A stretch of 64,000 nucleotides of DNA from Antedon mediterranea. Lineage: Eukaryota > Echinodermata > Crinoidea > Comatulida > Antedonidae. Made by a program: the position numbers and the translations under genes. Location: positions 22,505,201-22,569,200 of the forward strand of contig NC_092670.1 in assembly GCF_964355755.1 (NCBI RefSeq). Direction: 5' to 3'. Position 1 is the stretch's first letter. The number at the start of each line of letters is the position of its first letter. Below the pieces are notes generated by a model, which saw nothing but the letters and a program-made list of their open reading frames with translations, ran no database searches and was not told where the DNA came from. Shown here piece by piece: positions 25,001-64,000 of the stretch.

Positions 25001-28000
25001 GATATGTGGTCAAGGACCATTCCATTAAATTTTGGGACCATTTGGGACCACAGTCCCAATTCTGGACCACTTTTTAGTATACTTTTTTAGACCTGCTAGT
25101 GTTAAAAGATAGGACAGAATTTTTCAAAAGCCGGCGAGCAGTCTTAAAGTAACAAGTAAACTGAAATTGCATTTTCTCGAGAACTACTTGTCCAAAAAAC
25201 TTCATTTTTGAACAAGAGGCAAGAGTTATAATTTGTGATTTGTAATTTTAAAACATAATTTGATTTAATGTGCACGTTTTTTTATGCGAGTAGTTTAAAA
25301 AACCTATTTCTTTTCAAATTCACTCGTTTGATTTTCGCGTTGCTGTTCTATTGTTAGTCAACTGAAGCTATTGTTAATTGAAAGGCTTGTTAAATAACCA
25401 TTACACCAAACTCGCATACACATGCTTGTAATGAAATTAGCCTAAATCACACAAACAGCATTAAGACACACACAAATATATATATATATTTTTTTTACCG
25501 GAGAAATCTTATGTAGGAGAATTTTACAGTAGGCGGAGGTATGCCCTCTCGGAGTGGCTTTCTAGTTATTATTCTCTTTATCCCAGCTGAGAGCTGCAAT
25601 ACAATTCCTCCATTTCATCTTTTTCCATCTGCTCTTTCCCAATTTAGGTTTTCTTTATTTAGGTCTTGTGGTATGGTCATCTTCAGTACAGCAGCTGTTA
25701 GAGCTAATAATAATATTAAAACAATTTAATTTAATGTTTGTCTTTAGGGTAAGCCTGAATTAAGATATCAGCGAAAGCATGTCCTAGGCTGGGTTGAAGC
25801 ATCAAAACCTGTAACGTTTTCAATTTTCACGCGGGCCCGGCTGCGTTTCGCCGGCCTTGGTTTTGCAACACTTCACATCCGCATGTCCCAGCAATGCTCG
25901 AGAAAACCAAGAAACTATGAACGATTTCGTAAAAATATGTAAATGTTAAGCGGTCCGACTTGATCATCGTTATTTTATTTTCAACTTTAACGATTTTACT
26001 CAACTCAACGATCAACACAAGAAAACAGGCTTAAGTGGCCCTCCAATGCTGGAGGCCTCGGGCGTTTTTAATATTTTAAGGCCGTTTTTATTTTCCTATG
26101 GGCACTGCTCAGGGGCCCCCGTAAGCTCTGGGGCCCCTGGATTTAACCAGTGAGCGCTTATATCTGTTGCGCCACTGGATCAAATGCTTATTGATTGATT
26201 GCATCATGAATTCATGTATTTAAACAATTAAGGCCAATCATGTTTCTCCAATATGTCCTCTAGATCTAGATTAAACTGATCACATTGTTTGGTAATTGTT
26301 GATTTACATAGAATGACTGGCTTGATCATGATTATTTAAATGTGAACCTACCATTATCATCTTCAATAAAATTCTTTCTTGTGTCACAGATTCCCTGACA
26401 ACTATAAGGTTGAGGTGACTGCAAGAGATGTTTCTGGAAATTCTTATCCACTCATTCAACCAATAGAAGTGGAATATGGCATTCAGGTGGGGTCACCATT
26501 ACACTGTGACATGATTGGCTTAGATATGTCCTGCAAATTTCAATTGACATCTGGTAGTGGTGTATTGGTGAATGTTGACTTTTTTGATGGAGATGACTTA
26601 AACATGACAGTTGGTAAGTAAAAGGTGAATGATTCACAAGTGGACATGTTTATAAGACTGCATAATTTTTGAGTTTTTGGAAATTTATAACACGTACACT
26701 CAAAGTGTACAATGTCCTTTTCTGCAATCAATCAGGTTACAGTCATTTCTCTTGAGTTTCTTTAATTTTCTCACAACTATAATTTATGTATAGACAATGA
26801 AAGGTAGGAATTTTATCAGCTGTAATGAAATGGTATAACATGGTGTACTGACTCTCAAAATCTAACTTTTATAATATATTTATTATATTATTAGATTGCC
26901 CAGTAGTTATGTATGGATCTGATGCAAAGGTCGCAGATTTAAACTTGACCTGGGAATACCCACAAGCACGATATATCAAGTATAATGAAATGATAAAGCA
27001 GGAAGGACAGCTGATTGGTTGGGAAGTAAATATTTTATCATCAGGCTTTATTGTACTTGAGGTAAGTAGGCATTTGGTACATGCTCAAATGCTTAGAAAC
27101 TTTTGGGCATGCTCAAAACTTGTGAGCAAAGCTCAGACACATGTCAGCATGCTCAGGAAACTGTTAGCATGCTCAGAAATATGTGTAAATGCTCAGAAAC
27201 CTGTGAGATTACTCAGAAACCTGTAAGACTGCTTAGAAAGCTGTTATCATGCTCATGCAGACACCTGTGAGAATGCTCAGAAAACTGTTATGATCAGGCA
27301 CCTGTAAGAATGTTCATAAAACTGTTATCATGCTCTGTGAAAATGCTCAGAAACCTGTGAGAATGCCCTGAAACATTTGAGAATGCTGAGAAAACAGATA
27401 CTTGTTAGACTTTGTAACAGGTGAAGCTGCAGCTTGGTGGTTTGACTTCCAATCATAAGGTCCTGGGTTCAATCCAAACCAATTGTGACTTAGTTTATAA
27501 CCACGATAAACTTTAAAAGTGTTTATCTATCCTGTATTGGGCAAGTTGCTTGCTGTTACATATTTTTTAAACTGCAATTCCTATTGTATTTTGTGCACTA
27601 CTTTTTTGTTATCAAGATTATATAGTTTTTTGGGTTAAATCATAATATATATTATTAAAGTTTTAATTTCATATATTTTCAAAATTGAAATAAAAATGAT
27701 TGAACCAATAAATTTAATGTATTTACAGGTCTACCGCCCTCATACAGTAAATTGGCCAAAGATATGTGATTCATCATATTTAAAATTCAGGAAAAGAAAA
27801 TGCAGCAGTGAAATTAAATTGATGAGTCATGTTTATTTTCCATCTGTACCTGATGTAAACCTAACAATTGTGTATTCATATACATTTTATGCAAATTCAA
27901 GTGGCAAGAACTACTTCCAGGTCAACACGCCATTCAATGTCACTGAGTTCGACATCATTGGATGGCACTACATTAAAAGTGGTGTCATCGCTCAGGCACC

Positions 28001-31000
28001 AGGAACTCGAGGACCAGAGTTTGTAAGGCCGACATACTATGGTGAAGGTGACATATTGCAAATTACTCCAGAAACTATAGTGTCAAGTAGTGATAGCAGT
28101 CACATAATACGAGCTGTCGTCGTAAGACCAAGCACGGCAGTTTTTGAACATCATTGTAATTATATTCATTTGGACGACGTCAGCCATTATTGTGCTGTGG
28201 AAGTGAATCTGTCAAACGCCATATCAAATGTTGAGATGTTAACGTACATAAGAATAGCTCCACCAATTTCTAACGTGACTATTAACAGTACTGGATTTGG
28301 TTAGTTACATTAACTTTTACATTTTTTAATACAATAATACTATATATTGCGTCATGGTAGTGTTTATTTCTCATCTGTTACAATAAAGTTTGGCTTGACT
28401 TTTTAACACCCATTATTCCAGGGTTTTTTCACCTAGAATGATTGGATAGAATGTATTCTTCCTGTACCATAAAGGGAAATTCACTCTTTTCTTTTACTCA
28501 TATTATTTATTATAAATTTATTTTAGTTTAGATCATGGGACTGCTGACTCTTGTAGTTATAACTTATTACCTCCGCCAAGGAGGTTATGTTTTCATCATT
28601 TTCACCCCTGTATGTTTGTGTGTGTGTGTGTCTGTGAACAGCCTGGAGGCCACAGTTTTTATCCGATTCTCACCAAATTTAGCCACAATGATCTATACCT
28701 CAAAAGCTCGGACGAGTTAGAATTTGAGGGAAAAAGGTCATAGGTCAAGGTCACAACTAAAAAAAAACTATTTTACTGCCTAAAGCTGACCACAGTTTTT
28801 ATCCAAATCTCACCAAACTTAGCCACAATGATCAATGACTCATCATATAATTGTGGTTACTGGTCAGGGTCATAAGATCAAGGTCTACAAAAAACAAAAA
28901 CAAAAAAAAAAAAAAAAATAATAATAAAAAAAAAAATTTCTGTAGGAGGCTGGATACATAACCATTACACCAAACTCTCATCCACAACTTTGTAGTGTGA
29001 AGTTAGCCTATTTACACTTGGAACTAATAAAAAAATAAAATTTAAAAAATATATAAATTCCGGGGACATTTATGTAGGGGAATTGTACAGTAGGCGGAGG
29101 TTTGTACTCTCGGAGTAACCTCTAGTTTTTATTATACTTTAGTAGTCCCTGACCAATTAATCTCTGTATATTTTATATTTGTTGGTCACTAAATAAATGA
29201 AATGTTTAAGAAACTAAGGTTAATCAATTTTCCTCCTCACTTAAGTCAGTAAATATTTAAGGATTCACTTAAGTGGTATTACATTGTTTTAAGAGTAATT
29301 GTTTTTTTTACATTTTTTTTTCATGGGATTCTTTCAGCAAAGATTTTTGAAGTAGCCACGTTATCTGTTCTGGACCACCCCGGAATGGATATTTGTGAAT
29401 ATGAATGCAAAAACTCTACATACAATTCCACCACATTTGTGAATGAATGTTATGTATATCCATATCCCTGTCTACTGACCACAATCAGTGAAGAGGTGCA
29501 TTACAGCTGGGACTTTGGCAATGGTAATTCGACTATCACCTCGAAAAAACCTGTAGAAGTATGGTACGCTTACCCAGGAACTTACAACATATCTGTACGA
29601 GTGCATAACAACAACACAGAGGCAATTGATTATGTAAGTTTAAGTCTTGTGCAGAGCTATGAGTTGAGCAGAAATGCTCATCAGATTTTCTGCTGTCAAT
29701 GCTGTTGTTGGGTTTGGTGAGGCATGTTTTAGAAACCGCAATTAGAATTGTTTTTACGCTTGGTTCTCCCACTTAAACTCAACGCAATGACCTAAGTGCG
29801 TGGAATGAATTATTTGAACTGTCAACTCACTTGCAATGTACCTACATTGTTGCATTGTATTCAAGTAAGAACCAAGCTTAAATATGTGATAAGTTAGTAT
29901 TTGTATTGTAGATAGAGTATGTGCAACATGTTTTCAATACATCAAATCACACAAAGAATCTAGGTTAAGCATAGTTAGTTTCTTTTTCGGTTGGAAATAA
30001 GATTTTATGTGCTGTAACAAATAAAGTTTGTTATTTTATTTTAGATACTTTTTGAAGTACAAGAAGAGGTTTGCAATATTTCGTTTAAACAAATAACACC
30101 ATTGCCAGTCCTTGATAACTACACTATTGGTATCACCAATATCAGTCAGGCAGCACATGCTAAGTTGGCTCCTAATGTAGGTACTGTACATCACCCCAGG
30201 GCTAGAAATGTATTTATATTACTTACTGTATATACTTTATATGAAGTATAGCAAAATGCCTGAGCAATCCAAGTACAAACACATTTTCTGGGCAAATTTA
30301 TAAAATAATCAATCTTAAGGTGGCAGATCAAGTCTACCATAATACATTAACTAGTTTACAAAACATACTAGAAAATTGCTAGTTGGGCTAGGGTGATTTT
30401 TAGCACTGTCCCTCAACCCCCTCCTCCTTGAGTATACATTTTTGGAATGAATATTTTCTACAGTCCATAATGAGTTAATAATAAACAACTTTTTATGTAT
30501 CAATTTCTTTAAAACAACTACAGTAGTAAAACATGAACTGAATAATCATCCTTAATTTGTTATGTTATATGTTAGGAACAAAAACAAATATGACTGTGGT
30601 GATAGGATCAGAACACAACGTTTCATTTAATGTGTCACATGGTGAAGTTGTCACTTTTGAAGAAATACAGGCAGATAACACAACATACAAGAATGTCATT
30701 CTTTCAAACAAAGGTTTGTCACTAAGAAAGTTGCTTACAGAAAATGACATTAAAGAAATATTTCCCCCCACTCCCCAGAAGAAAACAATGTTATTTTAAT
30801 GTATTGTTAATTTTGACAAAAAAAATTAAATTGGGGGAAAAATAATATAAATTACAAAAATAGTCAACGTCTGTCAATTGGCTGTTTGCTTGTCTTTTTA
30901 TAGTAAAATCACTTTATTTTATTAATCATAATTTTTCATATTTGTTGGGGAATAATACAATGCAGTGAATATGCAAGAGTGAAACATTATTGATGTCAGT

Positions 31001-34000
31001 TCCAGCCAACACAAGCCAGATGTTTTTTAAAATTGATGATTGAGAATCACAAATATTAGAAAATATAAATTTGTTTTGTTTATAGGATTATGTCGAAATC
31101 CGCTTGGTTTACAATCTTCAGATATTGTTAATGATGCACAGTTTAGGGCGTCCTCTACTTTGGTGAAATCTAATATGACGTTTTATCCATACCTTGCACG
31201 TCTTGATAAGCCTTATGGTGCTTGGGCTCCAGATATTAATGACACTGAACCTTGGATAGAAGTGAGTATGTATTCTATTCTTTGACCTTTTTTTACAGTT
31301 TATCTTGAAAGAGTCCACTGCAACCTTAGCAGGTCACAGAGCTGAAGAGGATGGATGAAATGGTTAGCTTTGTTGGAATATGTAAGGTAATGTTATTTCT
31401 TCTGGTCCTAAACTAAGTAAATTTGGATTATGCCCTCTAGGACAACACCTACCAGATCAGCTCCCCATGAGAAGTATATACTTTAAATGTATTTAGAAAA
31501 GCAAAAAATGTACAAGAATATCAAAAGATTAACTTTGAGTTGAGATTCTATATTATGCTGAAAATATGGAGAAAGCAGACAATGGACTATGAAATGACAA
31601 AAATACCTGGGGGTAAAGTCTTCTTTCAAAAGAGCATAAAGGAGCTCTTGTTCTTCCACCAGCTCTGTTCTTTGCAAGTGAAAAACTTAAAGATGTATTG
31701 TCCCCCTGAAAAAAATATATTTTTAAATGTTTTTTTTTAATATGCCATTGTAATGTCACATATTATTTATTAACTTTGACCAAAACTTGGATTGAGAAAA
31801 AAAAAATTTACATCAAAAAACAGAAATAACAAAAAAAATTGTCAAATTGACTGTCTACGGAAGTGCATTTATATTAAAATTGCTAAATGGCCTATTCAAA
31901 GTCTATTTTAATTAATCTTAATTTTTTATGTTTTTGTGCGACAATACATCTTTAAGTCTATTCAGAGCAACATTTAAGTTAATATTGATAATACACACTT
32001 TTTTAGGTTGATCTCAAGATGATGTTTGTTGTTACTGGTATAATAACTCAAGGCTCTGATTCTGATATTATTGGATGGACCGAGAACATCACTATCAAGT
32101 ACAGTCAAGATGGTGACGCATGGTTTGAAGAACTTTGTTATAATAAGGTTTATTTGATTTTTATTTAAATTCTGATTTATAAAAAAGCCAACCTCACGTC
32201 CATTATGATCTTTGAAAACACAGTAGAAATGCGAGTTTTAAAACTTAATTTATCTTTGTTTTAAACAAAATGAATACCTTTGAATCAACGGAAAAGGGCA
32301 TGTGACATACTATAGATTATTGAGATATAATGTTGACATTTTGGGCCAAGGCAACCATACATGCAGTACATATTATTGAAATTATTTTTTTCTTTGTTTG
32401 ATAGCAATATAATACCAATTCTGACAGACATTCTCATATGACAAACATTTTTAGTAGTGCATTTATTGCAAGATTTGTACGAGTAATAGTTGGTGAACAA
32501 TCAAAGCAGCCGGCACTTAGATTTGAACTTCTTGGGTGCAACTGTAAGTATCAAACTTAAATATGTACGCTTAACTAAAGTCCAGGCTACACACTAGCAA
32601 GTAATGTGATCCTTAGATAGAGCTTCAGTTTACTAGTGTTGACTAAGATTTAGCTGGAGGCTGTCCATATGCGGATCACATGACTACAGTAAGTCATGTG
32701 ATCCTCAGATGAAGCCTCCAGTTTGCTTGTTTGGACTAGGCTTTAGCTGGAGGCAATCAATCTGCAGATCACCTGATCTACAGTAAGTCATGTGGTCCAC
32801 AGATTGACAGTAACACAACCATCTCAAAACAGTGCCAAACGCAGAGTTTTCAAATAAAGTTTGTTTTCAGTTGCTGTAGGTTGTACTCATCAATTGGGCA
32901 TGGAGAGTGGTCTAATAACTGATGAACAAATACAGATAACAAATATGGATAACATTACCAACAAATCATTTGTTAGACTTGAAAAGGTTGGCCATGAGAG
33001 CACCAATGGATGGTGTCCAGGGATCTCAAACGGTACTGACGATTGGGTACAAGTAGATGTCAGGAAGTTGACACTGATTACTGGTATTGTTATACAAGGC
33101 ATAGTGAAAATGGGGAATGCTACATCAGGTAATCTGCCTGATATTTATCTAAGCTACAGTGCTGATGGAGAGTCGTGGAACTATACTCAGGTAGGTAGAG
33201 TATTCTGTTTTTTTTTTAATTTTCAGAGTTACTATTTGCAGTAAAATTATGTAGTCCACCTACAATTGTTTCGTCCATCAGATATCAGAATAAGCAGCAT
33301 GTATGCCTAAAGCTCAAATAGGTTTAGGCCTTTATCCCACCTAATTCAACTGAATTCCAGCACGGAGCGGCATACATCCCAGCCATGTATCCATCGCAAA
33401 AACCATTTGTAGACAGGAGAACAACCGTAAAGATTTTTTAATATTGCACCACTTAAAATTGATAAGCCAACTTTTTGAACATGATGAAATAAAAATGAAA
33501 AATAAAAATTTTCCATAATCCAAGATTCTGCCAAAATGAATTATAAAACTAAACTTTAGCCAATCTTTATAATGTTCAGTTTTGGGAAAAGTAACTATAC
33601 TTAATAAATATTTTTTACTTAAGACCCTTTCTGGAGGAAATCAAAATGGTCGTCTACAAAAAAGAATAATATTTGAGGATGATATACTTACAAGGTATAT
33701 TCGTCTGCATATCATTAATCTGGATAATCTTTGTGTTCGTTTTGATCTTTTGGGCTGTAAAGGTTAGTACTGTATCTTTATCATTGTCATATTAAACAGT
33801 TTGTGATGTATGGTATGAATTTTCTGGATTCAGAACCGTGACAGAGATTAGAATTAACCACAGCCGCCAATTCCAATACAATTTAATTTTTTATATATAT
33901 ACTAATATACAACTAAAGGTCAAAAGCAATAATGGTAATCGGAAACCATGTACACATTTTGTGTAAATGTTCATAATAAATAACATAGTTGAAAATGTTC

Positions 34001-46000: not shown

Positions 46001-49000
46001 CAGTTACATTTAGATAACTCAAGCCAGAACGCAAGCAGTCTCATGGAAGATGTTTACAGCTATGAGGAGTCTGAAAATGGCCTGTTATCTTGCAAAAATC
46101 TAGATGGTATATATAGATATATTTAATTTGATTCAAATTGTTGACAGTGTCGATCTAAGTGGCTGAGGCATGGACTAGCTGCTGCAAACCATAGCTATAA
46201 AATTGGCATAGATTAAGATTAAGATTACTATAGTTTTGGTGGTCATACAAGTCCTCTTAGAAGGTCTGAAGATCCAGTGTACACATTTGGCTTAAGGAAC
46301 CCAGTATACCTGCATCTAAAAAGTAGCGGATTACCCTGCTACTGGCCCATATGTCTGCATCTATCGCTGTGGATAGGTAAAACTGGATCCTAAATGCAAA
46401 GAAAGATTAAAGTTGTTGCGTTTTTAGAAAGGCGATTATTGTATCCATTATCCATTTTTTGAATTCAATAAAAACAATTTTTTTTTCAGATATACAGAAG
46501 TATTCAGCTGTGGTTGTGGAGGTAACAGCACACAGCAATGATGACATGCTACCTAACATAACTTACCAATATGACATTGAGGTGTTCTTGAAGGTCAATG
46601 GTACTGCTTCTGAAGGCAAGATTGTTTTCACTTCTTTTTGATTAATTATGCAATATACTGTAGTGCTAGGGTAATTTTCATTGAATGCGTATCACTTCAC
46701 TAAACTATTTTTTTCTTTGTAATTTGGAGATTATTTGAAGATTCTATAACCAAAATTGGGAAAAAAATGTGTGATATTATTTTGTTTAGACCAGAGCACT
46801 CACTGGCAAAACTCATGAACAATCTAATGCAACTAACTAGCAGTGGGGTCCCTTAGGAGTGCTAAAGTCTTTGTCCCCTGCAATACACCACTGTGTAATA
46901 TTCTTTTGTTTTGATTTTTAGATGATTATGATCTAAGCTGTACGTTATCGCAGCTTTTAACAACACATAACAAGACTGCGAATGAATTTTATCCTAATAT
47001 ACCGTGGAACAAGACATTGCTATCAACTGTAGAAGGCGAGACCTTATGTTTATTTTCAAATAACATGCTTTCAAAGTGAGTATAACACATACCGCACTCA
47101 CTGCGGGATGTCATACCACATTGTTAGGTTGAGATAGGGTGAAGGTCACACATATTGCACTCAGTGTGGGACGCCATACCACATTGTTAGGTTGAGATAG
47201 GGTGAATGTCACACATATCGCACTCACTGTGGGACGTCATACCACATTGTTAGGTTGAGATAGAGTGAATGTCACACATATCGCACTCACTGTGGGATGT
47301 CATACCACATTGTTAGGTTGAGATAGGGTGAATGACACACATATCGCACTCACTGTGGGCCGTCATACCACATTGTTAGGTTGAGATAGGGTGAATGACA
47401 CACATATCGCACTCACTGTGGGACGTCATACCACATTGTTAGGTTGAGATAGGGTGAATGACACACATATCGCACTCACTGTGGGATGTCATACCACATT
47501 GTTAGGTTTAGATAGGGTGAATGTCACACATATCGCACTCACTGTGGGATGTCATACCACATTGTTAGGTTGAGATAGGGTGAATGACACACATATCGCA
47601 CTCACTGTGGGCCGTCATACCACATTGTTAGGTTGAGATAGGGTGAATGACATACATATCGCACTCACTGTGGGATGTCATACCGCATTGTTAGGTGGAA
47701 ATAGGGTGAATGTCACACATATCGCACTCACTGTGGGATGTCATACCACATTGTTAGGTTGAGATAGGGTGAATGTCACACATATCGCACTCACTGTGGG
47801 ATGTCATACCACATTGTTAGGTTGAGATAGGGTGAATGTCACACATATCGCACTCACTGTGGGACGTCATACCACATTGTTAGGTTGAGATAGGGTGAAT
47901 GTCACACATATCGCACTCACTGTGGGATGTCATACCACATTGTTAGGTTGAGATAGGGTGAATGTCACACATATCGCACTCACTGTGGGACGTCATACCA
48001 CATTGTTAGGTTGAGATAGGGTGAATGTCACACATATCGCACTCACTGTGGGACGTCATACCACATTGTTAGGTTGAGATAGGGTGAATGTCACACATAT
48101 TGCACTCACTGTGGGATGTCATACCACATTGTTAGGTTGAGATAGGGTGAATGTCACACATATCGCACTCACTGTGGGACGTCATACCACATTGTTAGGT
48201 TGAGATAGGGTGAATGTCACACATATCGCACTCACTGTGAGACGTCATACCACATTGTTAGGTTGAGATAGGGTGAATGTCACACATATCGCACTCACTG
48301 TGGGACGTCATACCACATTGTTAGGTTGAGATAGGATGAATGTAAAGCACTCACAGTGGGACGAGACACATACTATGGAATATCATACTACAGCTTGTTT
48401 ATTGACATATACTTCTACAGATACATATACTCGACAGGGAGTGTATCAGTTTGTGTGAGAAATAATGCTCAAATGATGAGTTACTCGGCCTCTGAAGAAC
48501 CATCAGTATTGAGGTTTCTTATGGGATTGTATACATCAGCATGCTATTACAGAACTGGAGATACTTGGAATCAAGAAGGATGTGAAGTAAGTATTCAATT
48601 TTTGAATTTTGAAGCCAATGAAGTGGTTTTTGTTATTCATCCCATAACATCTCCACAAACTTTTTTAATTACCTTAAATATTTCATATGCATCCAACAGT
48701 GAGAAACTTGCCAATTACATGATGGATAAATTATTTAATAATATATCGTGCTTATAAACTAAGTCTCATTTGAGGCTTAGGGAGTGGAGTTGAAAGAGTT
48801 GTGAGTTACAACCCTGGCACTAGATTAGTTCAGCACTAAAACCCCGGACCTTGAGATTGGAAGGAAAGCATGTTAACCACTTATTTATGACTATTATACA
48901 TACATGTGTACCATTGCATCCATAGGATAAGATTCATTTTAGTTTTATGTGATCATAGGTTGGAAATAAAACAACAGTTGATCAAACACAGTGCTTCTGT

Positions 49001-55000: not shown

Positions 55001-58000
55001 AATTTTCTGTGTATAATCCAGCAACAAATTTATTTGGAGTATCGAACATGGTTGTTGAATTCCCTCCAACAGGAGGTAAATACATGTTTTATATTAGTTT
55101 TAAAAGAATCTTCTTGTGAGAGACCTCTTCATTACAAGACTTTTCTTCCAAAAATCCCAGTACAGGGACATGATTACAGTAACACACCTGGAGATGGTCT
55201 CCTCTCTGTGAAAATAGTGTCCCATTTTTTGTGTTTTTGCACAATGTATGTAAACCAGACCAACAACTTTATTGCCCAAGTAAAGATACAAACAATATTG
55301 CATAGACGGATCTCGGACCCATGCTTCTAATATGCTAGTCCAACATCCCATACCATTATGCCATACCTCTAACAACATTTACATTGTGAAGTGTTGAATG
55401 ATGGAGTGAAACAAAGCTGTTTTCTTTACAGGGGCTGTGACATTTTACTCGTTTCAAGGTGTATTCCTTGATCGCTACATTGGAGGTCTAGGCCTATTCA
55501 TCAACTTATGCGAGGTGGTCTTCAGCTTTTTCATACTGCTGTTCCTAGTTAGAGAATACTCCAACATCAAGCAAGAAAGAAAAGCATATTTTAAGAAATT
55601 TTCCAATCTTATTGAGTTCGCCGTGTTGTTGTTGTCTATTCTAGCTTTGATAGCATATATAAATCGCTACATTTTTGGTAAACGGTTGAAGACTTTAAGA
55701 GAAGACGATATCAAACAATATTTGAATTTTCAGCATTTTGCAATTTGGGAACAGGTTAGTAAAATAAGTTAATTTGATTTATTTTGATACCATACAGAAA
55801 CAAAAACGTTGTTAATGCACTAGTCACATTACATATTGCATTATCATTATTATTATAAATAAATATTTTCACATTTAACATTTTTTCAGATGTATTACTA
55901 CATTCTTGGATTCATTCTATTCATCTCTACTGCTAAGTTTCTCAAATTACTGCGGTTTAATCGCCGTATGCTCTTGTTGTCCAACACTATTAGTTGTTGC
56001 TGGTTGGAACTTCTTCTTTTCCTGATGGTGTTTCTCATCATATTTGCTGCGTACGCATCGTGTGGGTACCTACTTTTCGGCTCAACATTGAAAGACTACT
56101 CGAGCTACTTAACAACGCTGGAGTCACTCTTTGCAACACTTCTTGGTAACCATAGTTTGATTATAATATGAAATTTCTGATAAGAAAATTACAAACACAA
56201 CTCTTTAATCAAAGAATGCTAATATTAAGTTTTATACGTATTTACAATTTTTTACATATATTATTAATATCATGATGATATATATGGCTTTCTTTGTAAC
56301 ACCCAATTAGTCTGTTGTTGCTTCGATGTTATTATCATATTTTATTTGTGACAAACTAATAAAATCACTCATCAATATTTTTCTTTCACTTAACACATAA
56401 TAATACTGCTAAGTACCACCTAAATCAATAGAGGATATAGCAATGTTTTATTCATATCAAATTGTTGTTAATAAAAGATCATAATAAAGCTACTCTGTAA
56501 ATCCAACTTAAATCAATAGTGTATTACATAAAAGTATATTTCTACAGTACATATAATTTATGAAGTTCCAACTTCATCCCCCACCTCCCCCACCATTGCT
56601 ATGAACAGTGTGCTGTTTTTTTTCAATGAAATGAATGAATCGTACCCGGGTCAGTGGTATGATTCCAGGCTATTTTAGGGTATCATGTACTTAACATTCA
56701 ATACATTATTACTTCATGTTAATATACTGCCATAAATACTGGTGTTACAGTAGAACTCCTATTAACCTACCCTTGAATAGGGGTAGGCTGTAGTGTTATA
56801 TTGACCTCATTCAAGAGACACCTTCCCTTGAATAGGGGTAGGCTAGGTAGTGTTATATTGACCTCATTCAAGAGACACCTTCCCTTGAATAGGGGTAGGC
56901 TGTAGTGTTATATTGACCTCATTCAAGAGACACCTTCCCTTGAATAGGGGTAGGCTGTAGTGTTATATTGACCTCATTCAAGAGACACCTTCCCTTGAAT
57001 AGGGGTAGGCTGTAGTGTTATATTGACCTTATTCAAGAGACACCTTCCCTTGAATAGGGGTAGGCTGTAGTGTTATATTGACCTCATTCAAGAGACACCT
57101 TCCCTTGAATAGGGGTAGGCTGTAGTGTTATATTGACCTCATTCAAGAGACACCTTCCCTTGAATAGGGGTAGGCTGTAGTGTTATATTGACCTCATTCA
57201 AGAGACACCTTCCCTTGAATAGGGGTAGGCTAGGTAGTGTTATATTGACCTCATTCAAGAGACACCTTCCCTTGAATAGGGGTAGGCTGTAGTGTTATAT
57301 TGACCTCATTCAAGAGACACCTTCCCTTGAATAGGGGTAGGCTGTAGTGTTATATTGACCTCATTCAAGAGACACCTTCCCTTGAATAGGGGTAGGCTGT
57401 AGTGTTATATTGACCTTATTCAAGAGACACCTTCCCTTGAATAGGGGTAGGCTGTAGTGTTATATTGACCTCATTCAAGAGACACCTTCCCTTGAATAGG
57501 GGTAGGCTGTAGTGTTATATTGACCTCATTCAAGAGACACCTTCCCTTGAATAGGGGTAGGCTGTAGTGTTATATTGACCTCATTCAAGAGACACCTTCC
57601 CTTGAATAGGGGTAGGCTGTAGTGTTATATTGACCTCATTCAAGAGACACCTTCCCTTGAATAGGGGTAGGCTGTAGTGTTATATTGACCTCATTCAAGA
57701 GACACCTTCCCTTGAATAGGGGTAGGCTGTAGTGTTATATTGACCTCATTCAAGAGACACCTTCCCTTGAATAGGGGTAGGCTGTAGTGTTATATTGACC
57801 TCATTCAAGAGACACCTTCCCTTGAATAGGGGTAGGCTGTAGTGTTATATTGACCTCATTCAAGAGACACCTTCCCTTGAATAGGGGTAGGCTGTAGTGT
57901 TATATTGACCTCATTCAAGAGACACCTTCCCTTGAATAGGGGTAGGCTGTAGTGTTATATTGACCTCATTCAAGAGACACCTTCCCTTGAATAGGGGTAG

Positions 58001-59008
58001 GCTGTAGTGTTATATTGACCTTATTCAAGAGACACCTTCCCTTAACTAGGGCTGTCTGTCTGTCAAAAGAAGGGTTCTAGTTATTGAAATAAAACTCTTG
58101 TTTTTTATAGGTAAATTTGATTTTCTGTCAATGCAAGAAGAAAATCGTGTTTTGGGAGCATTATTCTTTTTCTCTTTCATGATGACCATTGTCTTTATTT
58201 TGATGAACATGTTCTTGACGATAATAAACGAGGCTTTTTCACAAACAAGAGCTGATAATGAGAGGCTGAATAATGAATTGGAGATGTTGGATTTTATGAT
58301 TAATCGTTTCAAAGTTTGGACAGGTTTTAAAGAAAAACGAGCGAGGGTACGGAGGAGGTACACTTACATTGAAGGTAGGTTTTATGAATTACTTATATTT
58401 TTTTATTAGGTTTATGAAGAGTAAGCCTTATGGTTTGAATTTATTTTCCCATTAGCAACATATCTACTTATTTTAATTACCGTATTGGGGACACCTCCGT
58501 GACCCAAAAAAATGTCCCCTTAATAGTTATTGTTGGTAGTAATAAATTAAACATACAAAGAAGGGAGTAGAACCCCTGTTGACAACTTTGTGACCCAAGA
58601 AAGTGTTCCAAAGGTCCAACTTAATTTGTTGAAAGTTTATTATAACTTTTACTTTATCGTTTTTTTTAGCTTTTTGCTTATTTTATTTTGTGCCTCCATT
58701 GAGATCCAGCCATTGTCATTTTTCAGTAATTTTCTTTACATTTATAAGAATAGAAATGATTACAATTATTATTTTCTTATTAGCCTCTTCACATTTTTTC
58801 AGTGTTATTGCATAACATTTGAGAGTCTCTCTTTAATATAATACTAGCTATTCTGTTACTAGGTGTTGAACCAATACAGTCTGACTGTGACACTATGCAG
58901 CAGAAGTTGAACGAAATGGTTGAAAAACTTAATGAGTTTATTCGACTTGAAAAATATTACGAACTTGGAATTATGAAGAGTGGAAGTCGCAAGATTTACA
59001 CCTGCTAG
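14707..59008 (+). CDS. Polycystin-1-like / REJ-family receptor-channel protein, complete (4,230 aa)
   Basis: Forty-nine coding exons, all phases consistent, 12,693 nt: 14707-14779, 15758-15886, 19716-19835, 20798-20908, 21282-21387, 21684-22025, 26390-26613, 26895-27061, 27729-28299, 29338-29633, 30045-30180, 30576-30713, 31086-31261, 32007-32147, 32405-32543, 32871-33190, 33624-33762, 34539-34858, 35237-35375, 35829-36055, 36465-36594, 36763-39747, 39975-40137, 40401-40499, 41756-41934, 42428-42622, 42851-42981, 43180-43336, 43746-43921, 44261-44369, 44534-44556, 44847-44991, 45534-45640, 45860-46106, 46490-46615, 46922-47075, 48421-48586, 48959-49264, 49553-49927, 50018-50758, 51374-51588, 51867-52044, 52336-52513, 54338-54457, 54791-55075, 55432-55754, 55890-56145, 58111-58374, 58863-59008. 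Human PKD1 is 4,303 aa with 46 exons. The protein should be a plasma-membrane adhesion receptor with a large ectodomain and 11 membrane segments, possibly pairing with a PKD2-type subunit (family inference). Two introns use GC donors. Exons 5' of 14707 may exist as UTR. Confidence 0.93.
14881..15075 (+). mobile_element. LINE C-terminal fragment in intron 1
   Basis: An open stretch encodes LEVCYNNSLRMLLGLHKDC, typical of the region after the reverse transcriptase of animal non-LTR elements (AYNNSLRxLLGLP type). No catalytic domain is left. Intronic remnant. Confidence 0.55.
17640..18760 (-). mobile_element. LINE reverse-transcriptase remnant (minus strand, intron 2)
   Basis: Read on the minus strand in shifting frames: a VDVDSETSEQSPV segment, LPDKLSSRVRIFADDCILYR with the catalytic FADD box, LEDDVNRLCDCGRWASITLN, then near the 3' end RASSVTNMITQLNWDSLESK. 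The order fits a non-LTR retrotransposon of the CR1/L2/RTE-like kinds. Many frameshifts and stops make it inactive. It lies antisense within the polycystin-like gene. Confidence 0.82.
22071..23980. mobile_element. 1.9-kb near-perfect palindrome (foldback element) in intron 6
   Basis: Arms of about 950 bp run from tattatacagatattgact at the left to its reverse complement at the right, centred near 23022 where cgtatttacataggctatg faces its complement over a ~20-bp AT loop. Each arm also begins with its own ~140-bp hairpin (22100-22240 and 23812-23953). Inside each arm is a tRNA-like stretch (acgcagcggttgaagcgttg, then gagttcaagatcgag) and two direct repeats of a ~40-bp segment (gaaaattacacagtcaatat). 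No coding gene. Arms differ by only scattered bases and small indels, implying recent origin or gene conversion. Confidence 0.92.
23999..25568. mobile_element. 'ctccgccaagg' DNA element, composite, abutting the palindrome
   Basis: Left end acctccgccaaggaggtata; right end tacagtaggcggaggtatgc followed by cctctcggagtggctttcta. Related to the element at 28569. Contains two ~175-bp direct repeats (about 24265-24430 and 25090-25260) sharing 'gctagtgttaaaagatagga' and 'ttctcgagaactacttgtcc', so it looks like one copy inserted into or duplicated within another. Noncoding. Confidence 0.7.
26390..28299 (+). CDS. Polycystin-1-like exons 7-9: PKD-like region and unnamed module
   Basis: Exon 7 continues a PKD-like fold (FPDNYKVEVTARDVSGNSYP). 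Exons 8-9 encode an unnamed beta-rich module, residues about 400-560, with GWEVNILSSGFIVLEVYRP and later TEFDIIGWHYIKSGVI. A similar pair of motifs recurs in the N-terminal region of the second polycystin-like gene at 61143-61619. Several NxS/T sequons are present. Phases: intron after exon 8 is phase 0, after exon 9 phase 1. Confidence 0.75.
27080..27410. repeat. Degenerate ~20-bp tandem repeat after exon 8
   Basis: Irregular units around atgctcagaaacctgtgag starting some 20 bp after the exon 8 donor at 27062. The open frame continuing from exon 8 into it is repeat translation. Confidence 0.7.
27415..27560. mobile_element. Possible tRNA-derived SINE
   Basis: Contains ggtcctgggttcaatccaaa, a B-box-like motif, preceded by a tRNA-like 'agcttggtggtttgac'. 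Downstream tail ends in AT-rich sequence. No clear target duplication. Confidence 0.35.
28569..29125. mobile_element. 'ctccgccaagg' DNA element (intron 9)
   Basis: Left end acctccgccaaggaggttat; right end gtaggcggaggtttgtactc then tcggagtaacctctagt. Shares both ends with the element at 23999. Internal 'cacagtttttatccgattct' and 'caccaaatttagccacaatg' segments are each repeated, followed by an A-rich stretch. Noncoding. Confidence 0.75.
29338..30713 (+). CDS. Polycystin-1-like exons 10-12: PKD domain and linker
   Basis: Exon 10 holds a typical PKD domain: VHYSWDFGNGNSTITS with the WDFGxG signature, then YAYPGTYNISVRVHNNNTEA, the GxYxVxVxVxN signature; residues about 660-713. Exons 11-12 (residues 714-805) encode a second beta-rich segment with many sequons, probably another PKD-like fold. 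PKD domains are Ig-like repeats that form the stalk of polycystin-1. Confidence 0.85.
31086..36594 (+). CDS. Polycystin-1-like exons 13-21: three F5/8C (discoidin) domains and a degenerate fourth
   Basis: Domain 1 is exons 13-15 (residues about 805-957), starting LCRNPLGLQSSDIVNDAQF with VTGIITQGSD and ending RFVRVIVG..LRFELLGC. Domain 2 is exons 16-17 (957-1110): LGMESGLITDEQIQITNM, ITGIVIQGI, YIRLHIIN..VRFDLLGC. Domain 3 is exons 18-19 (1110-1263): LGLESGIVTDDQITASSI, LTGLITQG, RMEWLGC. Domain 4, exons 20-21 (1263-1382), keeps ITGILIKGTD and FIRFEIL but lacks the N-terminal LG(M/L)ESG part. Domains 2 and 3 are each coded by exons of exactly 320 and 139 nt. Exon 20 ends with a GC donor. Such domains bind lipids, glycans or matrix. 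Confidence 0.9.
31687..31955. mobile_element. MITE with TTAA-flanked inverted ends (intron 13)
   Basis: Ends ttaaagatgtattgtcc and cgacaatacatctttaa form a ~16-bp terminal inverted repeat with TTAA at both borders. About 270 bp, AT-rich, noncoding. TTAA suggests a piggyBac-like or related mobiliser (inference). Confidence 0.75.
32590..32815. repeat. Two ~110-bp degenerate direct repeats with small palindromes
   Basis: Two units each containing tagctggaggc..atcac and 'acagtaagtcatgtg', with an internal palindrome around gatcacatgactac / gtcatgtgatc. Intron 15, noncoding. Confidence 0.5.
34031..34198. mobile_element. Hairpin MITE (intron 17)
   Basis: A ~48-bp inverted repeat, aatattctttttttcaaacc to accttcttgac at left and its complement at right, encloses a ~70-bp loop. 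Noncoding, short foldback element. Confidence 0.7.
35550..35660. other. tRNA-like segment, possible SINE head (intron 19)
   Basis: Contains ccgtggtatgacggtggata followed about 50 bp later by taggttcgacatcgg, which is B-box-like. No complete tRNA fold or intact acceptor stem could be built. Weak. Confidence 0.22.
36763..40499 (+). CDS. Polycystin-1-like exons 22-24: large PKD-repeat exon and start of REJ
   Basis: Exon 22 is 2,985 nt, a single open frame of 994 codons (residues about 1382-2377). It carries several PKD-like repeats; clear ones include IQYTIDFMDGNVDI with SISGVYTVKLSARN, and VTYTWMYEPNG with NKYEITLNASNAV. Near residue 2140, LPCFFPNVTVADLN marks the entry to the REJ (receptor for egg jelly) region, followed by LIMLDASELTYDPD. 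Exons 23-24 continue REJ with GTPPDVELR and SCKLNCKI. Human PKD1 likewise packs most PKD repeats and the REJ start into one large exon (exon 15), supporting orthology at family level. Confidence 0.9.
40650..41512. repeat. 29-bp minisatellite (intron 24)
   Basis: About 29 imperfect units around aaccaatcagcaactatcac plus acacttctc, with insertions of ttcttctctcacacttc. The 127-codon open frame here is repeat translation. Confidence 0.92.
41756..48586 (+). CDS. Polycystin-1-like exons 25-37: rest of REJ and GAIN-like region up to GPS
   Basis: Exons 25-27 complete REJ, with GECQVNPLTGVESVTDFII then SIRQDNTTNWAII and YNVTIRVRVTDSFGSYIED. Exons 28-36 (helical, then beta segments; for example ASIREQLLNSMSSLTPAYTL) fit a GAIN-like domain that normally precedes GPS. 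Exon 31 is a 23-nt micro-exon (GRLQNSKN). The exon 29 donor at 43922 lies 3 nt before a MITE. Exon 35 uses a GC donor (GAAG-gcaaga), and exon 36 ends where the 63-bp satellite starts. Exon 37 ends with YRTGDTWNQEGCE, the Trp/Cys start of a GPS motif. Confidence 0.85.
43925..44068. mobile_element. MITE family 1, copy 4, at the exon 29 splice donor
   Basis: Begins aagctctgtcaacaatatca at the fourth intron base and ends gatatagtgtagacagagcc. Internal 'ctatatatggacacgatgac'. The ORF running across it from exon 29 is not coding beyond 43921. Confidence 0.82.
44664..44804. mobile_element. MITE family 1, copy 5 (intron 31)
   Basis: Ends aagctctgactagactatca and gtttgatagtgtagacagag-ctt; contains 'ttccatatatgggcacacca'. 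Lies 40 bp before exon 32. Confidence 0.82.
45240..45430 (+). mobile_element. Probable tRNA-derived SINE (intron 32)
   Basis: Contains gacccgggttcaactcccga with a perfect B box (ggttcaactcc), followed by 'ctcagctgtaaattagtacc'. The A box is less clear. No poly(A) tail of length. Confidence 0.45.
47071..48350. repeat. 63-bp satellite array starting at the exon 36 donor
   Basis: About 20 highly similar 63-bp units (core: cacatatcgcactcactgtg, then cataccacattgttaggttg, agatagggtgaat). The first unit, more diverged, overlaps the splice donor: gtgagtataacacataccgc at 47076 aligns with gtgaatgtcacacatatcgc of the unit. Occupies nearly all of intron 36. Confidence 0.95.
48959..49927 (+). CDS. Polycystin-1-like exons 38-39: degenerate GPS, first membrane segment, PLAT
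   Basis: Exon 38 supplies the GPS C-terminal half, TQCFCLLIPPETSYEE (residues about 3112-3127). The canonical HL-T/S cleavage tripeptide is absent (LLI instead). A tetra-arginine follows (MRRRRSTEG, residues 3132-3135). The first membrane segment is FAFMLSCICFYFVVIFW, residues about 3176-3194. Exon 39 is one PLAT/LH2 domain (residues 3205-3329): YNYEVTFFTGVRMGSGTTAN, RRSSI-like SSIDSFVMAVPRSLG, LRIWHDNSGNAKWFLSRVLI. PLAT sits intracellularly after the first helix in all polycystin-1 proteins and binds lipids or proteins. Confidence 0.93.
50018..58374 (+). CDS. Polycystin-1-like exons 40-48: membrane segments 2-11, TOP domain and channel-like core
   Basis: Exon 40 has segments 2-4 (for example LYVGWVLSFITIGIAMWL) and a charged cytoplasmic loop. 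Segment 5 starts exon 41; VTYLLFLIIMIIITFGN in exon 42 is segment 6, the first of the PKD2-like core. Exons 43-45 form the extracellular TOP domain with YGGGGYIADLGDTDEAAW and WVDQHTRAVFIEFSVYNP. Exons 46-47 hold segments 7-10 (GLFINLCEVVFSFFILLFLV; FAVLLLSILALIAYI; YYYILGFILFISTAKFLKLL; ELLLFLMVFLIIFAAYASC). The pore region is LLGKFDF and exon 48 gives segment 11 (FFFSFMMTIVFILMNMFLTI). Total of 11 segments matches polycystin-1 topology. Confidence 0.92.
53306..53483. repeat. Large hairpin (inverted repeat, intron 43)
   Basis: Arms of ~80 bp: left includes gtgtaatggtacaaataatg, right its complement cattatttgtaccattacac, meeting around atatcaactcggctttgcct. Looks like a foldback MITE. Upstream is a run of cctagcctaggc-type short palindromes (53016-53105). 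Confidence 0.8.
53597..54221. mobile_element. MITE family 1, copy 6, split by a SINE (intron 43)
   Basis: Left part tagtctacactacactttat to about 53714; right part from ~54171 (atcacacttttttgtcaaac) to gacagagctt. Together the two halves give a standard family-1 element, so the 5S/Deu SINE between them inserted later. Confidence 0.85.
53715..54170 (+). mobile_element. 5S rRNA-derived SINE with Deu-type core (SINE3 class)
   Basis: The first ~120 bp follow 5S rRNA: 'acggccatactgcgttgaaa', 'tcagatcaccgaagttaagc', 'ttctggatgggagaccgtcc', 'ggcgggtgctgtata'. These include the internal pol III promoter boxes. Then comes a conserved core with 'gatgggatgtaaagccgttg', 'gtcccgtgtacttaacagtg' and 'gagtaggggatcgtctcccg', matching the Deu domain known from deuterostome SINEs, and an AT-rich tail. 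It is a retroposon, not a functional 5S gene: bases differ from 5S and the sequence continues past the 5S end. Confidence 0.85.
56755..58050. repeat. 55-bp minisatellite (intron 47)
   Basis: About 23 almost identical units of ttcccttgaataggggtagg, ctgtagtgttatattgacct, cattcaagagacacc. Two units have a 2-bp longer form (ctaggtag), some a 'ccttatt' variant. The rest of intron 47 (56146-56754) is AT-rich with nothing recognisable. Confidence 0.95.
58863..59008 (+). CDS. Polycystin-1-like exon 49: cytoplasmic tail and stop
   Basis: Encodes the last 48 residues, including CDTMQQKLNEMVEKLNEFIR, a heptad-like helix that may form a coiled coil as polycystin tails do, then SGSRKIYTC and TAG. The tail after the last membrane segment is about 110 residues, shorter than the ~200 of human PKD1. 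Confidence 0.88.
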
Positions 59009-60653
59009 TGGAGCATCAAATGTTGTATTTATAAACATTATGTTGGAACAATTTATAAAACACCTTAATACCAGGATTACGCCTGCAACAACAATGTTTA
59101 AAAACATAACTTAATTAACACTTATATAGCACATTTTTAAAAGTAATTTTTTAACATTACTGTTTCAAGACTTGTTACTGTTGGTGAACTATGTATTGTC
59201 TTAGTAAGGTTTTTAAATCATGTTACTTTAACATGTAACATTTTATTATAAAAATAGATAATACATAATATGGCTTATGAATGTTTAGAAGTGTTTGTCA
59301 TTGATCTTGTTGTGTATACATGGTATTATTATATATCCCATTGTTGTCATAATAATTAACAAACTATATTTATTATTATTATTATTGTTTAAAAAAACTT
59401 GTATTGATTATTACTGACAAATCAATAACTACACAAGGTAGTTGCACAGTGTAGTGAATTTTATAGTTGGTTCCGAGCGTATGCTTTCTCTGGCGTATTA
59501 AATCCACGAGACCGTACACTGACTGCCAAAATGATTCTACATACAAAAAGTATACTATATTCAACTAAAACTTTTATTTCTGGTAACTCAGTATTAATAC
59601 AACTTTCTACCAGTCTAGACCTTTCTTCTCTATACTCTATACGTCTTTCTACTATCATGTTATTTTCTCTTCTTTTCAATATCTATAACATTTCCCTTAT
59701 ATACTCAACATGCAAATAAGGGACTTCAGAGGAGGATAATAATTGTTCCCTTCAAAAGTTTCCCTCCAAAATAGTACCATATGATTGACTCATAAATTAA
59801 GCAGACCTAGTCTGAAGCATCCTTTATCTAACCATAGAAAATCAGATACATAATATTATGACACGCAGTATTATTGCATTGACCTAATATTTAAAAAGGT
59901 TTCGCTGCATTTTAAGTTATACTGCAAACAAAAAGTTTTACACTACAATAATTTATTTGTTTTGACACCAAACTCTTATATACTTCATGCATCAAACAAT
60001 TTCAACTTTAAAAAGGCTTATTAGTTCTAAGTCTCTCTAAGATTGTGGAGCAACTATTCCAGAATTAACATTGTTAGTTTATATTGTTTTGTGTTTTTAA
60101 GTAATTGTTGATCATAGGTTAGGTCTACCAATGATTCGATATTCAATAAAAAAAAATTTTTATAAAAAAGATCAATATCGTAATTTTTGCAAAACATCCA
60201 CGTAAATCAATAAAGTTGATGCATATAAATTGACGTATTCTCTCATTTTGAGATAATGAAAATTCAACTTATTGTTCTATAAATTCTAAAAGCACGATTC
60301 TTGAATATTTTTTATAGTATAAAACATCCTCTTTTTAATTACATACTTAAAACGAACGTAGTTTATGTCGTCGCATATTATATATTGAATTAGCATGTAT
60401 AACCGTTCAATATTATACTGAATAAATTAGCAGCAGTAAGAATATTTTCACGAGTTAAACAGATCGTTGTGTCTTGTCAAACAATAGTTTTATTTCACTA
60501 ATAACTTTAGTGACGGCATGTCATATTTGATTGGTCAATCAATTACGTTTGCGCATGTGCTTATATTCTTATAGAGTAACAGAACATTGAAATATAAAAC
60601 ATTATGTGTCGCTCCTTGTTTCATCAACATGACGCTCAAGAATAACTTGTAAA
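59009..60653. other. Intergenic region between the two polycystin-1-like genes
   Basis: Holds the 3' UTR of the first gene and the promoter of the second. Possible promoter marks are a reversed CCAAT (gattggtcaat, about 60530) and a TATA-like atataaaa at 60592, 60 bp before the ATG at 60654. Minor AT-rich repeats elsewhere; no gene seen. Confidence 0.4.
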
Positions 60654-63600
60654 ATGAGGTTATTAAATTTACTTCAGGTAGGAGGTATATATTATTATAT
60701 TGATATTATTGTAGTTCTTGACAATTACTTATATAAAAAGACAAAACTGGAACAATATGACTTTTTTTTAAAGAACTTGCTATACTATTTTTAACCTACA
60801 ATAATTACTACAACTGTATACTATTTTCATTTTCCCAAAGATTTTGTGTATGCTTAATTGTGTCTTTTCGTCCGTTTATGATGGTAAGTATACATATTAG
60901 TTAAATTTAGATTTATTTTTCAATAAGCAAATTCGTTTGGTGGTGGGTTGCAAGAAGGTTTTATAACTTAGACATATTAGGTCTAAACCTAATTAAAAGG
61001 GTTTTTTAAACTAAATGAAAAAGATAATAATCAAATGATCAGATCATATCAGTTTGCAATCATATTTGCAATTTTCTTTGTTTTTTTGGCAAATTAAATA
61101 CTTTTTTTATCTGTTATAAGTCTATGTTTATTCGTGTTTCAGACGCAGTGTGCGAAGAGCCTTACAAAGTTGGCTGGTCAAATGACACTGATATATTAAC
61201 AAGAGATGTTGGAGCAATAGTCGTACTTGATAGTATTACATCCAAATGCTTCGGGAAAATAACAAAATGGGAGTTCATCTCTGCCAAAAATAATGGAACG
61301 ATCCAGTTCTTTGTCCTACAAAGAGTACCAGACATCACCGGAAAGTTCATCATTACTAGGAAATTGACAGTTGATACTTTTGGAAATGGAGTGACACATC
61401 ACGTGAGCTTGAATTCAGAAGATAATCTGGCAATTGGTTATGGCGATCTTATTGGTTTCTCTTCTGTTACCAATGGCATTGTGTATAAAGAGGGTGGTAG
61501 CTCTGTTTGGTACTCTGCAACTGATGACGACACACAAGATCTCGGTTATAGGTCTGAATTGGTTTTATCAAATACTGCAAATCGGTCATATGCTCTGGTT
61601 GTTCACATTCAGACAATATGTAAGTAAACTTCCTTAATATTTGATTCCATGATACAACGTTCTTTGACATAACAGCATCATCTTCCTTTACCATACAGAA
61701 CCTCATTTAATTAAACTAGCCTACTTTACATAAGGGATTTTTTTTCTCATTTCTTTTGACTTCCTGTCTTCTAAATTTCAATATTTCATAAGATCTGCAA
61801 TGCAATGAAAATAATGCTTATACACAGGCCAGTGTTTCTTTAAATTTTTATGTACTGTATTAACGTATATTTTATTTTAAACTTGTCATAATAATATAAT
61901 ATGTACTTTTTCATATTTTAACAGCCTCTCTTGGATGTCACGTGGACAATATTATAGGGCGCGAAATTAACATAAATCCTGGATCGTATGGTGCACCAGA
62001 TGATGTTATAGACTGCCGTCAAGTCTGTGCCGAGAATAACTATGCGTAAGTACATACAATGTTTGTACTCTATACAAGTTTTATGCACTGCTGGAGATGT
62101 ATCATCCCTTAAAACCTAAAAATAGGTGAATAAAATCTAACTTTAAATGCCATTTTGTAGTTTTAATAAAAAATAAAGTTATTCATTAATTTTGCCCAAA
62201 AAATAATGTATTTTATTATTCATTTGTCTACCTCTTATTGACCCTCTGTTTAAATAACACAACAGTCCAGTACACCCCAGCAGAGGGGTTGTTATTTGTC
62301 AAAAGTAGGTAAACGGTCATAATCTTTGATTTAAATACCATGTTCAACCATAAATTGATTAAAAAGCTTAACTTTATACACAGACCTCACTTGGAACTTT
62401 TCAAACAGTCTTTAGCTTCAATGCTCCAACTTTTTTTTAATTCTCTTCCTTTAGATATCTGACTTGCCTTATCTTACCCTTCTTTAAATTTCTGCTCAAG
62501 AACCATCTTCTTGTTTAGTTACTTCCTTTTTCCTATCTTTTCTTCTGAGAGGGCCAATTTAATTTAATTTATTTTTTATTCTAAATTGTTTGTGCTTTAT
62601 TTTAATCTTTATAAATTATATTTATTTTAATTTAATTATTATTGTCTCGTCATGATGTATTTCTGTGAGAGTCACTAATGATCAGCTGGATGGACCACCC
62701 TCGTAAAATATTGTTGAAATAAATAATTGAGTACACATAACAAAAACTGTTCAATTATTAAGTTAGTTAGGCTTTAGGTCGTGTTGGAAATCACAACTTC
62801 TGGTATTTTGTATTCACTTTTCAGTGCATAATTTTGGTTAATATTAGCCAGTAGATATTTATATTCTAAATAATGTCATATTACAGATTTACGGCATTTC
62901 GTGCAGAAATGTGTTTATGTGCCAACGACTCAATTACCAACAATTATGCCGAAATGCATTCTTGCACTGAATGTCCTGCAATGTTGCACGATGAATGTCA
63001 AACGACAATCCATAATGTAGTGTTCAATAATGACGATGTTCTAACTGCTTTTAACACAATGTGGTATAAGGATGACGATAATAGGTCTACAGGTAAAGAT
63101 ACATATATTTATTTACAAATCTTCTATTTTACAAAGAGTGAGATTTCTCTTCCCTCTTTACGAACAGTCTTCAAATGGAGTCTTTTCTGAATTTTTTATT
63201 TCTATTTTTTTACCTTTGTGAAAAAAAACCCATTTTAAAGTTAACAATAACATACTATTTTTTACATACATTGTTTAACCCAAATTAACCTCCCCCCCCC
63301 CCCCCCCCACTTTCTTCTTCTTCCTCCTCCTCTTACTCCTCCTCTTATTCCTACTCCTCCCCCCCCCCCCCCAGCATACTGGCATGATCAATTCAAAGGT
63401 TTTATTGTCATTTTCTCTTTTAAAGTCAAACATTAACAGCGCATATTAAATTTAATTAATACTTAGAGGCATAGTATAAAACTAGAGAAGAAATTCATGA
63501 CAATGAACAATACATACCCAGATAAACTACAGCTAATAATTGATCATGCATATTTTATGAATTAATTAATTTTTTTTTAGCTGACGGTATAAAAGATGAA

Positions 63601-64000
63601 ATTCAGGGAAATGCATGGTATAACATATCTGTATACCCTACTAATTCAGCTAAAATTACCAGTTTTAGTTATGATTTCGGAGACAAACAAACACACAAAG
63701 GAACAATGAGATCTGTGAAGCATGTGTTTCTGTAAGATGTTAATAACAATAATACTATTTCATTTTTTTTTTAAACAAACATTTTTCTTAAAAAATTAAT
63801 ATTTGTTAACAAAATAATGTGCTAGTATACTAAAACATGAATAGAAATGTTTATATTATTGTATTTCTTTAATAAAGGTAGATTGATTATTAAAATGAAT
63901 AAAACAAATCAAAAATCTACTTCATTACTGTAGGTCACCTGGGCAACGGTCAATTAGATTTGAAGTGACAGATGAACTTGGTAAAACTTTGAAGACTACT
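60654..64000 (+). CDS. Second polycystin-1-like gene, 5' part (runs off window)
   Basis: Seven exons in phase: 60654-60677, 60841-60883, 61143-61619, 61925-62045, 62887-63092, 63581-63731 and 63934 to the window end; 363 codons. Signal peptide MRLLNLLQILCMLNCVFSS. Exon 3 encodes an unnamed beta-rich module of ~160 residues with WEFISAKNNGTIQFFVLQR and YGDLIGFSSVTNGIV, similar in pattern to exons 8-9 of the first gene. Exons 4-5 are a WSC domain (SLGCHVDNIIGREINI; MCLCANDS; cysteine-rich). Exons 6-7 are a PKD domain (SFSYDFGDKQ; RSIRFEVTDELGK). Same strand, 1.6 kb after the first gene's stop, so a tandem paralogue is likely. The REJ and channel parts lie outside the window, so the full type is inferred. 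Confidence 0.8.
63290..63374. repeat. Polypyrimidine tract with poly-C ends
   Basis: Two runs of 13 to 18 C flank (ttc)n/(tcc)n sequence, 85 bp without a purine except few A. Intronic in the second polycystin-like gene. Confidence 0.9.

Follow-up and report, generated by a model that had tools for sequence, protein, structure and literature searches.

Polycystin-1-like genes at the locus

The 64,000-nucleotide stretch of the Antedon mediterranea genome analysed here (the window) carries two polycystin-1-like genes, whose features are collected in Table 1. Gene 1 combines PKD domains with a polycystin cation-channel end, the combination that marks the PKD1 (polycystin-1) family. An initial annotation of the window had described, in exons of both genes, a common pattern of short motifs; both segments translate as quoted there, and the quoted motifs occur in the correct order. 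The segments correspond to two subtypes of one module, referred to below as module 1 and module 2.

Table 1. Features of the two polycystin-1-like genes, in window coordinates.
Feature	Position	Strand	Evidence and remarks
Gene 1, EGF-like exons (near 15.76, 19.72 and 20.80 kb)	15750..20920	+	PF00008 for the last two; first by sequence only
Gene 1, WSC domain, two exons, upstream of module (approximate)	21287..21860	+	PF01822 E=5e-5, below Pfam cut-off
Gene 1, PKD domain preceding module	exon 26391-26615		Read by eye; no Pfam score
Gene 1, module 1, exon 1	26895..27061	+	Phase-1 start, phase-0 end; splice signals; IKQEGQLIGWEVNILSSGFIVLE
Gene 1, module 1, exon 2 (module part ~27729-28130)	27729..28299	+	Phase-1 end; splice signals; profile match to family
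Gene 1, PKD domain directly after module	29340..29636	+	PF00801 E=6e-9
Gene 1, polycystin cation-channel end	58112..58375	+	PF08016 E=2.5e-9
Gene 2, module 2, whole module in one symmetric 1-1 exon	61143..61619	+	Leave-out profile E=2e-10; intron phases
Gene 2, WSC-like domain, two exons, between both module copies	61925..63020	+	PF01822 E=0.0047, below cut-off
Gene 2, PKD domain	63581..64000	+	PF18911 E=1e-7
Gene 2, module 1	equivalent to 64627-65619		Just past window end

Domain order is EGF-EGF-EGF-WSC-PKD-module 1-PKD in gene 1 and module 2-WSC-PKD-module 1-PKD in gene 2, while a third PKD1-like gene (gene 3) has module 2, module 1 and a PKD-like exon, with a WSC-like stretch between the modules that was read by eye. 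Module 1 thus keeps a constant position, with WSC-PKD before it and a further PKD domain behind it in each of the three genes; module 2 is an extra copy on the N-terminal side, ahead of WSC, in genes 2 and 3, and a profile search of the window did not detect it in gene 1. The module had been thought to move as a unit, since it follows EGF and WSC in gene 1 and precedes WSC in gene 2. The proposed movement falls away, because gene 2 also has a second, gene-1-type module after WSC and PKD, and different copies had therefore been compared. With both subtypes in fixed places in genes 2 and 3, the arrangement consists of two positions rather than one jumping unit.

The gene 2 module and its genomic family

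The gene 2 exon is bounded by the splice signals cag|AC...T|gtaagt and encodes KITKWEF near 61262-61276 and YGDLIGFSSVTNGIV at 61439-61483. Used as a query against the 354-Mb genome, it gives matches at 14 places, the strongest being an exon of gene 3, about 340 kb away (E=1e-5), and a more typical member of the same family retrieves at least 35 matching exons on several contigs of the genome. In an alignment of 20 members, the G, W and D-I-G positions are invariant, and the family is characterized by the motifs GxITxW and VxxGDxIG[FW] together with a conserved Arg. A profile built from the family members minus the copies of genes 2 and 3 ranks the gene 2 exon at E=2e-10 among the 1403 open reading frames of the window, the next reading frame having E=0.16, and alignment of the exon with the family by hhalign gives a probability of 94.7% over 128 columns. 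The exon matches the family profile with GxITxW, Arg and GDxIG[FW] in place and, judged by these matches, is a divergent member of a family that has no name.

A second subtype in gene 1

In gene 1, module 1 is split between two exons with the splice signals ag|AT...CTTGAG|gtaagt and cag|GTC...TTTG|gttagt, respectively. The phase-0 intron inside the module follows LE or FE and is conserved in position in genes 2 and 3, both of which contain paralogues of these exons; the copies are highly diverged, with 28-36% identity between genes. The second exon encodes EFDIIGWHYIKSGVI at 27945-27989, carries an insertion with two Cys residues in its module part, and extends beyond the module; HIIRAVVVRP, the last strand of the module to be matched, finishes near 28130. 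The subtype motif is EFDIIGW, which lacks the usual Gly. The gene 1 exons also lack the pair formed by the N-terminal Cys and the Cys before GxITxW. The latter residue is missing in three of three module 1 copies and in the module 2 copy of gene 3, and is nearly invariant in the other family members; the Cys pair is common in the family rather than strictly defining for it.

Whether the two segments share an origin was judged by profiles. Pairwise BLAST between the gene 1 and gene 2 segments is not significant (best piece 19 residues, E=0.13), and G/W/D turn patterns are frequent among beta-sandwich proteins; on these two grounds the segments might be taken for unrelated beta-rich stretches of PKD-repeat receptors, alike in short turn motifs that are common by chance. 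A profile of the three module 1 copies from genes 1, 2 and 3, however, scores 38.6 against the family in hhalign, or 42.7 with query and template swapped, at probabilities of 75-87%. The best of 200 column-shuffled profiles reaches 20.6, the reversed profile 14, and profiles of unrelated domains from the same genome (PKD, WSC, F5/8, SUEL and C-type lectin) 7.5-13.7, so that the score is about twice that of the best shuffle and three times that of the unrelated domains. When the insertion of the gene 1 type is left out, the score rises to 43.4/48.4 and the probability to 90-94%, the matched length increases from 46-51 to 87-103 columns, and a single alignment holds both motifs. The gene 1 exons thus match the family profile with the same motifs (score 38-48 against decoys of at most 20.6), and the profile-level similarity that the initial annotation had named as a test of its proposal is present (38.6-42.7 against the same decoys). 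Chance resemblance is thereby strongly disfavoured already, and we consider it very improbable. The comparisons indicate instead that both segments are homologous and the shared module is real, the gene 1 segment representing by its profile similarity a second, more divergent subtype of the unnamed family with a Cys-bearing insertion.

In the tree, the module 1 copies form one clade (100/100), which is joined to the module 2 copies of the polycystins at 86/81; a common origin of the subtypes within polycystins is not claimed, because the branches are long.

Intron phases and neighbouring exons

Phase 1-1 boundaries are typical of shuffled extracellular modules. The introns at the module boundaries are in phase 1 on both sides in genes 1 and 2, and among the family members examined, phase-1 acceptors occur in all 14 and phase-1 donors in most. 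The same-strand exons adjoining family members, assigned to one gene by strand and distance only, encode Lectin_C, SUEL lectin, F5/8 type C, PAN and EGF domains. Because of these boundaries and neighbours, the module has likely been shuffled in a wider sense.

At two loci (L028 and L032), module exons and F5/8 type C (fucolectin-like) exons alternate closely. The module exons of L026-L028 are near-identical and lie about 2 kb apart, which suggests a recent tandem duplication.

Relatives in actinobacteria

A consensus of secreted actinobacterial proteins served as the first bacterial query; when bacterial genomes were scanned with it, one record matched along its whole length (53%), and this sequence in turn gave matches in 14 of the 199 genomes scanned from its class. 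At a threshold of 1e-4, the bacterial profile matches in at least five of 296 genomes of the phylum. Profile-profile comparison of the bacterial and animal families gives a probability of 98% and E=7e-14 over 139 columns, with decoys scoring at most 16. A profile made from animal members only, run against the same 199 genomes, ranks the same bacterial gene first (E=1.3e-8) and a second gene at 9.6e-7. On this evidence, secreted actinobacterial proteins carry the same domain as the animal module. The link to module 1 runs through the animal family, since the bacterial profile scores only 24 against the gene 1 subtype directly, near the decoys.

The actinobacterial domain (L057, L060-L067), likewise unnamed, resembles the animal module in its length of about 150 residues, in being secreted and in the order of its motifs (GVITSW, L.V.RP, YTVVG, F..RIPV.AGD.IG). 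It differs in being a stand-alone N-terminal domain, followed by a tail with the calcium motif DxDxDGxGDxTQD, in its identity of only about 15%, and in that the Cys pair seen in the animal members is missing from most copies. Plasmids yielded no match to the module, and viral contigs a single match of 12 residues, which is taken as chance.

Known families and predicted fold

The claim that no named domain shows this pattern holds up: neither segment has a match among Pfam or PDB sequences, nor the gene-2-type family in NCBIfam. Neither the family nor its bacterial relatives reach a curated cut-off in Pfam-A or NCBIfam (module 1 was compared with Pfam only), all matches being at chance level, and PDB sequences gave no match for the animal family or the bacterial relatives. 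Ku80 in PDB (E about 0.04) was taken as a chance match. A literature search found no description of the module, which is weak evidence. The module is also distinct from the PKD domain (PF00801/PF18911), the adjoining extracellular beta-sandwich domain of the same genes, to which it has no profile similarity (hhalign score 7.5-10.9).

The AlphaFold model of the gene 2 module, from an alignment of three rows, is too poor for use (pLDDT 44). The bacterial model (mean pLDDT 56, core 60-78) is all beta except for a low-confidence end helix, so that the module is weakly predicted to consist mostly of beta strand, and a beta-sandwich fold common to both segments is plausible. This low-confidence model also weakly resembles C2 domains, PTEN C2 and CBM22 (Foldseek best E=0.03, Z up to 7.2), and the module may accordingly be viewed as a diverged form of one of the known beta-sandwich classes, whether C2-like, TNF/C1q-like or a carbohydrate-binding jelly roll. 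Against such membership stand the low pLDDT of the model, the fact that Z values under 8 are common among unrelated proteins, and the lack of sequence matches in Pfam and PDB; we regard it as possible, with the odds somewhat against it.

A candidate ligand-binding unit of polycystin-1-like receptors

Taken as a whole, the observations are best explained by an extracellular module that is autonomous, about 150 residues long and probably mostly beta strand, from a family without a name, which occurs as two diverged subtypes in PKD1-like receptors and has relatives in lectin-associated exons and in actinobacteria (probability roughly 0.85). Homology, copy number, gene order, intron phases and relatives are observed; beyond this, we infer its fold, ligand and signalling role. 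The module would act as a ligand-binding unit in the outer region of the receptor, with glycans or matrix as its probable ligands, and the PKD domains would relay binding or pulling at it to the channel end. Ligand binding as such seems somewhat probable; glycans or matrix are the best guess because of the companion domains, and a glycan in particular is a tentative choice, a little short of even odds. The module could instead be a mere structural spacer in the receptor stalk that binds nothing, as its place among the stalk-like PKD repeats and the high divergence of module 1 between genes would suggest. Family members, however, adjoin lectin and F5/8 exons and not stalks alone, and module 2 is positioned at the N-terminal side, so that a pure spacer is rather unlikely.

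Vertebrate PKD1 and sea urchin SpREJ6, 7 and 10 are, like the genes described here, members of the PKD1 family with WSC and PKD repeats, and the searched portions of the two sources describe no further domain of the module's kind in them (PMC5318412, PMC1934368). The module might nonetheless be an ancient domain of polycystin-1 receptors, a diverged copy of which would survive in vertebrate PKD1, in the unannotated stretch between its lectin domain and its PKD array. We think this improbable; if true, a kidney-disease protein would contain an unnoticed ligand-binding domain. Domain annotation would gain a missing entry from an unnamed family that links the outer parts of polycystin-1-like proteins with lectin-associated proteins and with secreted proteins of bacteria, and the module offers a defined piece to express in the hunt for ligands of polycystin ectodomains. 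The view of how polycystin-1-like receptors work is unchanged by it.

Other features of the window

Two tandem arrays are present: one at 56765-58051, intronic and close to the 3' end of gene 1, with about 23 copies of a 55-base unit at 98% identity, and one at 47085-48343 with 20 copies of a 63-base unit at 96% identity. At 22727-23299 either strand carries the same reading frames of 70-80 residues, suggesting two repeat copies in inverted orientation within an intron. Upstream of gene 1, the near-identical coding stretches at 894-1274 and 7307-7537 (NYSQAI.ANSTSLIVWLINHNVIEERPDLALTYYPSRYSFYYYVAR) constitute a tandem duplicate of an unassigned gene, the longer copy having no Pfam match. The minus strand at 12970-13224 resembles a family 2 glycosyltransferase (PF00535, E=2e-6).
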